Source: Streptomyces tuirus (GTDB lineage Bacteria > Actinomycetota > Actinomycetes > Streptomycetales > Streptomycetaceae). Taken from it: 64,000 nt of DNA. A model generated the notes under the pieces. That model made no database searches, was not told where the DNA came from, and worked only from the letters and a program-made list of their open reading frames with translations. The stretch is taken from contig NZ_AP023439.1 in assembly GCF_014701095.1 (NCBI RefSeq), forward strand, positions 3,274,001 through 3,338,000, given 5' to 3'. A program made the position numbers and the translations under genes. Of the stretch, positions 23,360-26,959 are shown piece after piece (position 1 is the stretch's first letter; each line of letters opens with the position of its first letter).

Positions 23360-23378
23360 GTCGGCCGATCGCCGACGT
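23360..23378. promoter_or_regulatory. Perfect 19-bp palindrome upstream of a strong promoter
   Basis: CGTCGGC-CGATC-GCCGACG is a perfect 7-bp inverted repeat with a five-base centre. It lies 18 bp upstream of the -35 element at 23397, a position suited to an activator or a second repressor site. Confidence 0.55.
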
Positions 23379-23396
23379 CCGTCGATAAAAACCGGT

Positions 23397-23426
23397 TGAT
23401 CCGAAGCCGAACGGCTTCTTAGGCTC
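23397..23426 (+). promoter_or_regulatory. Housekeeping-type promoter with a palindrome filling the spacer
   Basis: TTGATC (-35, 23397-23402), an 18-bp spacer, and TAGGCT (-10, 23421-23426), close to the HrdB consensus. The spacer contains GAAGCCG-AA-CGGCTTC (23404-23419), a perfect 16-bp palindrome centred between the two hexamers. A protein bound there would cover the promoter or, MerR-like, distort it. Predicted start of transcription is about 23433. Confidence 0.7.
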
Positions 23427-23458
23427 CAGGTACACGAGAGAGGAGGTGGTTCGGCAGA

Positions 23459-23497
23459 TGTATGAGAACCGGACGCGTGAGGTGGCTGCGGGCTAGC
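23459..23497 (+). CDS. Possible 12-residue leader peptide
   Basis: ATG at 23459, 11 bases after AGGAGG, would give MYENRTREVAAG and stop at 23497. A second ATG four bases on (23463) opens a different 25-residue frame. The good ribosome site right after a strong promoter makes translation plausible. The peptide has no runs of one amino acid that would suggest classical attenuation. Confidence 0.35.
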
Positions 23498-23577
23498 GGC
23501 CCGTCACCACACACAGTGCGGTGCCGGACCAGCGCGTGAGCGAACGCGCAGCCGGCCCAATCTCCAGCAGTCACCCG

Positions 23578-23651
23578 ACCCGCGAGTCGCCGGCACGTCC
23601 GGCCGGCTCCTCCCCAGGAGGAACCAGACTCGCGGGTCGTCTGCGTTTTTC
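23578..23651 (+). terminator. Long stem-loop with T-run
   Basis: GACCCGCGAGTC (23578-23589) and GACTCGCGGGTC (23628-23639) pair perfectly over 12 bp, enclosing a 38-base loop with a further CTCCT/AGGAG hairpin. GTTTTT follows at 23646-23651. It terminates the small transcript just before the HIT-like gene. Confidence 0.7.
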
Positions 23652-23669: not shown

Positions 23670-24146
23670 ATGACGGTGGGTGCGTGGCGTGAGGACCGGA
23701 TCGGGAGCGCCCTGCGGGGTGAGAACCCGGCCGTGATGCGGCGGCTGGGCTCGGGGTTCGCGGTGATCGGGGATGTGCAGTTCCTGCCCGGCTACTCGGT
23801 GCTGCTGACCGATGATCCCGCGGTGCAGCGGTTGTCCGAACTGCCGCGCAGCGGGCGGCTGGCGTTCCTGGCCGACATGGACCGGCTGGGGGAAGCCGTC
23901 GAGCGGGCCTGCGGGCGGATGGAGCCGGGGTTCCGCAGGGTCAATCTGGAGATCCTCGGGAACGCCGACGGGTTCCTGCACGCGCATGTGTGGCCACGCT
24001 ACGACTGGGAGCCCGAAGAGCTGGTGCGGCGGCCCGTGTGGCTCTATCCGCGACAGCGGTGGAGCGAGGAGCGGTACGCGCTCGGGCCCCGGCACGACCG
24101 GCTGCGGGAGGCCATCGGCGAGGAGCTGGACCGGCTCGCGGGGTGA
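23670..24146 (+). CDS. HIT-like protein (diadenosine tetraphosphate hydrolase-like) with altered triad
   Basis: 158 aa, ATG at 23670 after GGGGGCG. The central segment GFLHAHVWPRYDWEPEEL (about residue 100-117) resembles the HIT motif His-x-His-x-His, but the third His is Trp (HAHVW). Upstream, RLGSGFAVIGDVQFLPGYSV and LLTDDPAVQRLSEL fit HIT/GalT-type strands. HIT proteins hydrolyse or transfer nucleoside monophosphates from dinucleotide substrates. With two of three His, activity is uncertain. It follows a structured transcript and is convergent with a citrate synthase gene across a hairpin terminator. Confidence 0.82.
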   Translation: MTVGAWREDRIGSALRGENPAVMRRLGSGFAVIGDVQFLPGYSVLLTDDPAVQRLSELPRSGRLAFLADMDRLGEAVERACGRMEPGFRRVNLEILGNADGFLHAHVWPRYDWEPEELVRRPVWLYPRQRWSEERYALGPRHDRLREAIGEELDRLAG

Positions 24147-26258: not shown

Positions 26259-26657
26259 TCACATGCCGATGAGCCGGACGCGGTCGCCGCACAGCCGCGC
26301 CATGTCGTCGACATCGGACGTCAGCACGGCCACCGGGCCCGGCTGGCGCAGTGCCACCTCGGCGACGGTCGCGTCGATCGCGTACTTGTGGCCGTGCAGC
26401 CCGGCGGCCTTCAGCAGTTCCGCGGATGCTTTCGCGGCGGCCTCGGTCACCGGCTCGACCTTGACCCGCGAGAGCGCCCACTGCAGTCGAGGCATGTTCA
26501 CCCGCGCATGGCTGACTTCCACGATGGTGTTGGCGCCGATGACGAAATCGGCGCCCGTGGCGTGCAGTACCTGGAACATGGCCAGGATCTTGCGGTCCTG
26601 GGCGATCCAGGCGGAGAGCCCCTGAGAATCCAGGACCACCGTCTCGACGTGCTCCAT
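26259..26657 (-). CDS. PIN-domain ribonuclease, VapC-type toxin
   Basis: 132 aa from the ATG at 26657, whose first base is the last base of the antitoxin stop codon (TGATG). PIN-domain acids are present: Asp10 (VVLDSQGLSAW), Glu47 (NTIVEVSHARVN), Asp95 (KYAIDATVAEV) and Asp115/118 (VLTSDVDDMARL). These bind Mg2+ in VapC toxins, which cleave tRNA or rRNA. The partner antitoxin lies directly upstream. The pair lies between pdxH and the TetR gene that ends the large catabolic operon. Confidence 0.9.
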   Translation of the reverse strand: MEHVETVVLDSQGLSAWIAQDRKILAMFQVLHATGADFVIGANTIVEVSHARVNMPRLQWALSRVKVEPVTEAAAKASAELLKAAGLHGHKYAIDATVAEVALRQPGPVAVLTSDVDDMARLCGDRVRLIGM

Positions 26658-26905
26658 CAGGCAGCACTCGCCGATCCGCCGGCATCCGTCGTGCCGAAGA
26701 TCCTGGAGCGGGCCTCGGCCAGTTCCTCCTCGGTGAAGGCCCCGTACTCCTCCTGGTGACGCATCAGGTCGGCGCCGAGCAGCTGATGCCGCAGCTGGCG
26801 TGCCACCGCCTCGGCGACATAGCCGGAGACGTTGTCGGTGAGCTTCCTGAGTTCGGCGACCTGGTCGGCCGGCAGTGTCACCGTGATGCGTGTCGTGTCC
26901 GCCAT
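26657..26905 (-). CDS. Ribbon-helix-helix antitoxin, VapB-type
   Basis: 82 aa from the ATG at 26905; an in-frame ATG at 26932 would add nine residues but overlaps the palindrome. The N-terminus TRITVTLPADQVAELRKLT is a ribbon-helix-helix strand plus helix, followed by VSGYVAEAVARQLRHQLL. The acidic C-terminus (EEYGAFTEEELAEARSRIFG) is the usual toxin-wrapping tail. Dimers normally repress their own promoter, and a palindrome lies at the expected place (26913-26928). Confidence 0.88.
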   Translation of the reverse strand: MADTTRITVTLPADQVAELRKLTDNVSGYVAEAVARQLRHQLLGADLMRHQEEYGAFTEEELAEARSRIFGTTDAGGSASAA

Positions 26906-26911
26906 GCTCCG

Positions 26912-26928
26912 AGCATACTGCGGTATGC
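26912..26928 (-). promoter_or_regulatory. Palindromic operator overlapping the toxin-antitoxin -10 element
   Basis: GCATAC-TGCG-GTATGC (26913-26928) is a perfect 16-bp inverted repeat. On the minus strand its end forms TATGCT (26917-26912), a good -10 hexamer. Transcription would start at or next to the ATG at 26905, giving a leaderless mRNA. This suits autoregulation by the antitoxin. Confidence 0.65.
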
Positions 26929-26959
26929 GCATCCCGCGTCCGCGCTGACAGCTGCTTCC

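Follow-up and report, generated by a model that had tools for sequence, protein, structure and literature searches.

The small-RNA gene at positions 23432 to 23645 on the plus strand of the window (the whole 64,000-nucleotide stretch of Streptomyces tuirus DNA analysed here) belongs to the Rfam family RF02471 (Ms_IGR-5), and on balance we favor the view that its product, an RNA of about 215 nt, is a stand-alone, ribosome-engaging and translation-sensing RNA in which the start codon, the position of the stop codon, and the fold are conserved, rather than the encoded peptide. The cmscan match scores 89.5 bits, about twice the gathering score of 45 bits, and covers model positions 1 to 184, the full length of the model, with a predicted 5′ end at the sequence ACAC (23432). 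The family itself is already known, and the original prediction, which had described a small RNA of unknown identity from the letters of this DNA, was mistaken on that point. What had been known by a catalogue name only becomes a specific, testable RNA that is kept across Actinomycetota.

RF02471 nearly always occurs once per genome. A covariance-model search across relatives, which had been proposed as a check on the original prediction, returns a single match in the S. tuirus genome and matches in 54 of 61 relatives. Samples of the class and of the phylum gave matches in 192 of 296 and 70 of 396 genomes, respectively, with 35 of these 70 falling below the gathering score; 14 control genomes gave none. 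Two genomes (G047 and G516) carry two matches; the second, weak match in the former (L056, G047:C377; 27.6 bits) could represent a degenerate copy or chance. A DNA pattern search of named genomes yielded at least 120 stretches, and among the 80 listed, 79 bear actinobacterial names, with Streptomyces, Mycobacterium, Nocardia, Nocardioides, Cellulomonas, Geodermatophilus, and Acidimicrobiia among the groups listed. One Acidimicrobiia-like copy (L156) lies on a contig labelled as an Acidobacteriota MAG, which is probably a binning error.

Our homolog set (n = 134) combines the 54 covariance-model hits with the 80 listed named loci; the pattern behind the latter fixes GGAGGTG, GGAY, GAGGTGRCTG, and GCT, and only its free letters are taken as evidence. 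Counts over 131 rows omit two loci with N in the sequence (L105 and L129) and one duplicate (L158), and all homolog counts are inflated by related sequences. Two additional samples were used: 20 further model hits (28 loci less 8 that repeat a known ORF) and 37 loci from other classes, taken from 40 phylum hits lacking a locus, with G299, G430, and G214 left out. These 37 loci score mostly under the cut-off and still keep the 16S complement described below.

Transcripts of the family have been reported before. RNA-seq validated Ms_IGR-5 in S. lividans TK24 (PMC8079986), a study of S. avermitilis places it among sRNA transcription units (PMC8780764), and the M. smegmatis sRNA ncMSMEG15794c overlaps it (PMC10454040); the accessible text of these reports gives no function for it. 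PMC3765725 yielded nothing on Ms_IGR-5, and PMC6418233 mentions only another family, Ms_IGR8. As a name for the RNA in S. coelicolor, scr2736 is a doubtful candidate, having its own Rfam family, RF02831, according to the accessible text of PMC8079986; a literature search on scr4389 gave nothing useful. The conserved frame, the clamp, and the 16S complementarity set out below are not described in the searchable literature on Ms_IGR-5.

The leader of the RNA contains a 16-nt segment (23437 to 23452, plus strand), including the Shine–Dalgarno (SD) sequence, that is complementary through Watson–Crick and G–U pairs to the 3′ tail of 16S rRNA from the same genome (GGATCACCTCCTTTCT). It pairs with all 16 tail bases, three of them as G–U, and is the only complementary run longer than 11 within the window; the duplex is calculated at −27.1 kcal/mol, compared with −21.4 kcal/mol for the best of 212 long frames in the window. 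This pairing is conserved in the 131 homologs. Counted from the G of GGAGGTG, positions −4 to +6, +8, and +9 pair in 131 of 131, +7 in 126, and +10 in 124, with purines at all 131 of the leader positions −3 to −1 that stand opposite a 16S U, and pairing drops at the edges of the segment (94 at −5, then 108, 76, and 43 at +11, +12, and +13). GGAGGTG is present in the 54 model hits too, where the pattern did not fix it. A complementary run of at least 14 is found in all 20 further model hits, and one of 15 or 16 in all 37 loci of other classes, which were likewise not chosen by the pattern. Within the S. tuirus genome by itself, a 14-nt version of the complement gave no fewer matches than the reversed pattern did (12, five of them antisense to 16S itself, versus 11); with the pattern being this common, the argument for a dedicated 16S complement draws on its conservation.

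As the original prediction had it, an AGGAGG SD sequence is followed by a 12-codon frame, and this frame proves to be conserved in the class and beyond. The micro-ORF (MYENRTREVAAG plus TAG) occupies 23458 to 23496 on the plus strand, with its ATG at 23458 to 23460 and its TAG at 23494 to 23496. An NTG codon stands at codon −12 in 129 of the 134 homologs (53 of 54 model hits and 76 of 80 listed named loci), as ATG in 65, TTG in 48, GTG in 15, and CTG in 1; the five others comprise one locus with an ATG one codon earlier and four Acidimicrobiia-like loci with a CTG further upstream. The stop is kept in every homolog (54 of 54 and 80 of 80), as TAG in 104, TAA in 15, and TGA in 15, with no TGG, a codon that independent changes would be expected to yield (Fisher 6e-12, with relatedness ignored). 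The distance from start to stop remains 12 codons, codons 2 to 4 vary freely, and residues 7 and 12 are variable as well, whereas 119 of 134 homologs have threonine at codon 6. All 54 model hits encode E-V at codons 8 and 9, and a second SD-like hexamer, GAGGUG (23479 to 23484, plus strand), lies 9 nt before the stop in the same 54 of 54; for the remaining 80 loci, the pattern itself dictates both features. Among the 20 further model hits, 18 have an NTG start and all 20 have the stop.

In the other classes, 36 of the 37 loci carry a frame whose stop lies 12 to 13 nt past an internal GGUG, in a search that allowed 11 positions and near-cognate codons. Eight of these 36 use ATC or ATT at the place of the start codon (L216, L218, L221, L222, L224, L225, L233, and L241), near-cognate codons of a sort that initiation factor 3 selects against. 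Two loci among the 20 further model hits that also come from other classes, L084 and L086, are without NTG at codon −12 and without GGAY. Three of the 37 loci, L228, L229, and L232, set their frame differently with respect to GAGGUG but retain an NTG start and have their stop 12 nt beyond GGUG; L225 also has a differing frame, and there start and stop are kept only by way of an ATT start. Because the peptide differs in L228, L229, and L232 and the NTG start and stop remain, we conclude from this comparison of sequences that translation and the site of termination, not the peptide, appear to be under selection. Ribo-seq reads have been reported on Ms_IGR-5 for two mycobacteria, M. abscessus and M. 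smegmatis, and in the accessible part of that report, the authors warn that non-coding RNPs give reads as well (PMC4974804). Translation of the frame would also be expected in S. tuirus.

Two predicted long-range pairings, which covary within the class, join the micro-ORF to the 3′ domain of the RNA. The first, helix P2, is formed from a 5′ arm inside the ORF (GGUGGCUGC, 23481 to 23489, plus strand) and a 3′ arm, B′ (GCAGUCACC, 23567 to 23575, plus strand), a conserved block before the terminal stem whose registers in the 131 homologs were set by alignment. All nine pairs of P2 are formed in 116 of 131 homologs. Its pair 9 is intact in 125 (C-G in 82, U-G in 19, U-A in 19, G-C in 4, and A-U in 1) and mismatched in 6. 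The second pairing, a loop contact that we refer to as PK, joins the GGAY of codons 5 and 6 (GGAC, 23471 to 23474, plus strand) to the RUCC loop of the terminal hairpin (GUCC, 23597 to 23600, plus strand). It is seen as GGAC-GUCC in 116, GGAU-AUCC in 13, and GGAU-GUCC in 2 of 131 homologs, with no mismatch; when the partner is slid by 1 to 3 nt, none of the 131 keeps all four pairs. Both Streptomycetaceae and Nocardioidaceae-named loci include the GGAU-AUCC form. Among the 20 further model hits, 16 have a complete P2 (3 with the reversed control) when B′ is taken to be the site that pairs best, and 18 have the loop; L063, L065, and L068 among them show additional matching double changes within P2.

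A pair counter run on 45 of the 85 distinct rows, picked for variety, found 20 cells changed on both sides, where shuffles gave 5.1, and a paired share of 96.8% of cells, where shuffles gave 93.3% and slid partners 23–65%. Two of its five measures did not separate clearly from shuffles, namely pairs changed on both sides (2 versus 1.8, with 363 of 500 shuffles as high) and further pair types (12 versus 10.5, with 44 of 500 as high). In the 37 loci of other classes, P2 is undetectable (13 of 37 versus 13.9 in shuffles), and the loop 4-mer matching PK, found in 29 of 37, is likely to occur by chance there. The original prediction had tied its case to covariation in related genomes: P2 and PK show it within the class, but the palindromes that it had emphasized are unconserved in relatives.

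Neither pairing is represented in Rfam, which types Ms_IGR-5 as an sRNA gene: its consensus leaves B′ and the GUCC loop unpaired, hence includes neither P2 nor PK, and pairs the 3′ part of the ORF locally, with several non-standard pairs in the window sequence. When the lone window sequence is folded at minimum energy, P2 is likewise absent and B′ pairs with the 3′ end. This extension is possible in 71 of 131 homologs versus 52 with shuffled tails (46 of 54 model hits and 25 of 77 named loci), and a two-state terminator built from B′ and the 3′ end was discarded, the pairing not being general. Also set aside was a hairpin, P1, between RUCC in the leader and GGAY, which forms at least four of six pairs in 130 of 131 homologs, but has its pair 1 mismatched in 31 of 131; it is weaker than PK and explained in part by the 16S pairing.

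Through its near-complete complement of the 16S tail, RF02471 may thus be able to engage ribosomes and, within the class, to fold onto its own micro-ORF, and we propose that Ms_IGR-5 RNA probably senses or holds ribosomes. The leader, antisense to the 16S 3′ tail, would capture 30S subunits, and the captured ribosomes would read about 12 codons and stop just beyond the GAGGUG hexamer, which could pair with the same anti-SD as the leader. A ribosome at the stop codon would cover both ORF arms of the clamp; when no ribosome is present, the 3′ domain would clamp the frame via P2 and the GGAY–RUCC contact. Judging from this geometry, occupancy and clamp would be mutually exclusive, giving a two-state RNA, and the RNA would therefore report, or hold, ribosomes. 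Candidate outcomes of such a switch are a change in stability, the exposure of B′ as a seed, and the holding of ribosomes.

A more far-reaching reading takes RF02471 as a phylum-wide trap for 30S or 70S ribosomes, with capture by a hyper-strong SD, holding by the second SD, and release on closure of the 3′ clamp; we regard this as a doubtful proposition. If it were true, masking of the anti-SD would move translation away from SD-led mRNAs and toward leaderless ones. Leaderless mRNAs are common in Actinobacteria, accounting for 21% of primary transcription start sites in S. coelicolor, where 31 sRNAs are ribosome-occupied (PMC4895711, accessible text). Should either the trap or the sensor prove true, Actinobacteria would have in RF02471 a ribosome-directed counterpart to 6S/Ms1, one that connects the supply of ribosomes with leaderless translation. 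Independent of both, the annotation of the family is corrected by the conserved frame, P2, and PK.

The conservation described above could also be read without translation, as that of a plain non-coding regulatory RNA in which the P2/PK fold is what matters and conserved nucleotides just happen to spell the start and stop codons. The best-conserved codons (5 and 6, and 9 to 11) are indeed those held in PK and P2, and P2 persists in L068 though codons 10 and 11 change. Such a reading is nonetheless unlikely given how the frame varies: only the first letter of codon −12 changes in the 129 loci, the stop changes only among stop codons, codons 2 to 4 vary freely at constant length, and L228, L229, and L232 shift the frame yet keep an NTG start and a stop, as L225 does only via ATT. 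The opposite emphasis, a functional micropeptide whose 12-aa product acts in trans, might be suggested by the threonine at codon 6 and by the E-V at codons 8 and 9. These residues are, however, largely explained by RNA pairing or by the second SD, residues 2 to 4, 7, and 12 vary, and L225, L228, L229, and L232 encode an entirely different peptide, which leaves this explanation quite improbable.

The genomic context bears on a further reading, that of a cis-acting leader or attenuator of a downstream gene. In the window, the RNA gene is flanked by genes for a PAS-domain protein (other strand), a 158-aa protein without a Pfam match, a citrate synthase, and a PNPOx-family oxidase, and a same-strand ORF begins at 23670, about 20 nt past the T-run, as an attenuated gene might. 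An ORF family shared with the PAS protein is found at 43 of 134 loci, mostly upstream and on the other strand, and an ORF family of 23 loci lies on the other strand at a median of +286. The ORF clustering mixes real genes with shadow frames, and we therefore sampled 12 loci and scanned their frames against Pfam; 11 had frames, and L088 gave none. A recognized downstream gene lies on the other strand in five of the 11 (citrate synthase in L098, heme-binding THAP4-like in L108, L110, and L120, and DUF559 in L122). It lies on the same strand in two (an acetyltransferase in L115 and a peptidase M24 in L154), with a partial citrate synthase match in L107, and the Pfam scan recognized no downstream gene in L128, L104, and L099. 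The same-strand genes are unrelated to each other, and no same-strand gene directly downstream, of the kind that a leader attenuator would control, is shared among the 11 sampled loci. Because of this, and because the accessible text of PMC8780764 counts the S. avermitilis RNA among sRNA units, a cis-acting leader peptide is highly improbable; the limited occurrence of the B′–3′ end extension (71 of 131, given above) also speaks against an attenuator with a two-state terminator. Where the original prediction had offered a small RNA or a leader peptide gene, the part that holds is thus a dedicated small RNA with a short frame.

Upstream of the RNA, the promoter consists of TTGATC (23396 to 23401), an 18-nt spacer, and TAGGCT (23420 to 23425), all on the plus strand, and 123 of 134 homologs have TTG-17/18-TANNNT in the corresponding position, immediately preceded by an A-rich stretch (32% A versus 14% across loci). 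The RNA would be transcribed from this conserved promoter of the housekeeping type. The two elements earlier described as near-consensus are present; a simple sigma-70 scan reported no promoter, and TAGGCT matches the −10 consensus at three of six positions by inspection. The original prediction further held that this promoter was tightly regulated through perfect palindromes of 16 and 19 bp. Each of these is a 7-bp inverted repeat with a non-palindromic center, AA in the former and CGATC in the latter. The repeat in the spacer (23403 to 23418, without strand) has counterparts with arms of at least 7 in 5 of 123 homologs, compared with 0.6% of random 24-mers at 66% GC, which could be taken to favor control by a dedicated regulator; the five repeats, however, all differ in sequence, and the window's own repeat is absent from close relatives. 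Since close relatives do not have the inverted repeats, palindrome control is unsupported, and we consider it scarcely credible. The inverted repeats are probably due to chance, though 5 of 123 exceeds the simple random model.

At the other end, the RNA closes with a terminal hairpin (23576 to 23639, plus strand) comprising a 13-bp outer stem and an inner hairpin. The arms of the outer stem span 23576 to 23588 and 23627 to 23639, with at least 10 bp retained in 126 of 131 homologs, and are followed by TTTTT (23646 to 23650, plus strand), likely the tail of a terminator. The stem with T-run had been anticipated correctly except in its length, which was given as 12 bp. The RNA as a whole folds better than shuffles of its sequence (z = −4.3, with 0 of 200 as good). 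A CTCCTC segment that had been put forward as a possible anti-SD was rejected, as it can pair locally with GGAGGAACC and is missing in many of the 54 printed homologs.

Among known RNAs, the trp-type leader-peptide attenuators carry an SD and a short ORF ending in a stop, and this ORF pairs with RNA further downstream. The same elements are found in Ms_IGR-5, with the difference that its predicted pairing lies inside a stand-alone RNA, and no shared downstream gene was found. Dual-function sRNAs of the SgrS/SgrT type carry a small frame as well. Ms_IGR-5 has the micro-ORF with an SD and conserved start and stop codons that would mark an RNA of that type; unlike in those RNAs, the peptide of Ms_IGR-5 is unconserved, and it is the start, the position of the stop, and the ORF pairing that are conserved. 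Ms_IGR-5 also resembles Ms1 (scr3559) and 6S RNA in being an actinobacterial sRNA of 200–300 nt, and differs in its locus. According to the accessible text of the respective reports, S. coelicolor Ms1 lies between SCO3558 and SCO3559, adjoining a HAD hydrolase (PMC9130861), 6C RNA flanks this hydrolase on its other side (PMC8539372), and RIP-seq identified two RNA polymerase–associated RNAs, scr3559 and scr0792 (PMC11077062). In S. tuirus, a 6C match (45.9 bits, cut-off 47) and a HAD hydrolase lie together at 4.14 Mb, and the Ms_IGR-5 RNA at 3.30 Mb, where the Ms1-type synteny with a HAD hydrolase is absent. Identity with Ms1 was rejected because these neighbors are 0.85 Mb away. The 6C match beside the hydrolase (L031, G000:C1:4141437-4144513) marks the expected place of Ms1/scr3559 in this genome.

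A search for plasmid matches gave none. Elsewhere in the window, the minus strand at 26259 to 26932 carries a small gene pair, of which one encodes a 91-aa protein with a weak match to the CcdA antitoxin (21.3 bits, cut-off 22.4), and the frame just downstream resembles a PIN-type toxin by its appearance; this pair is possibly a toxin–antitoxin module.
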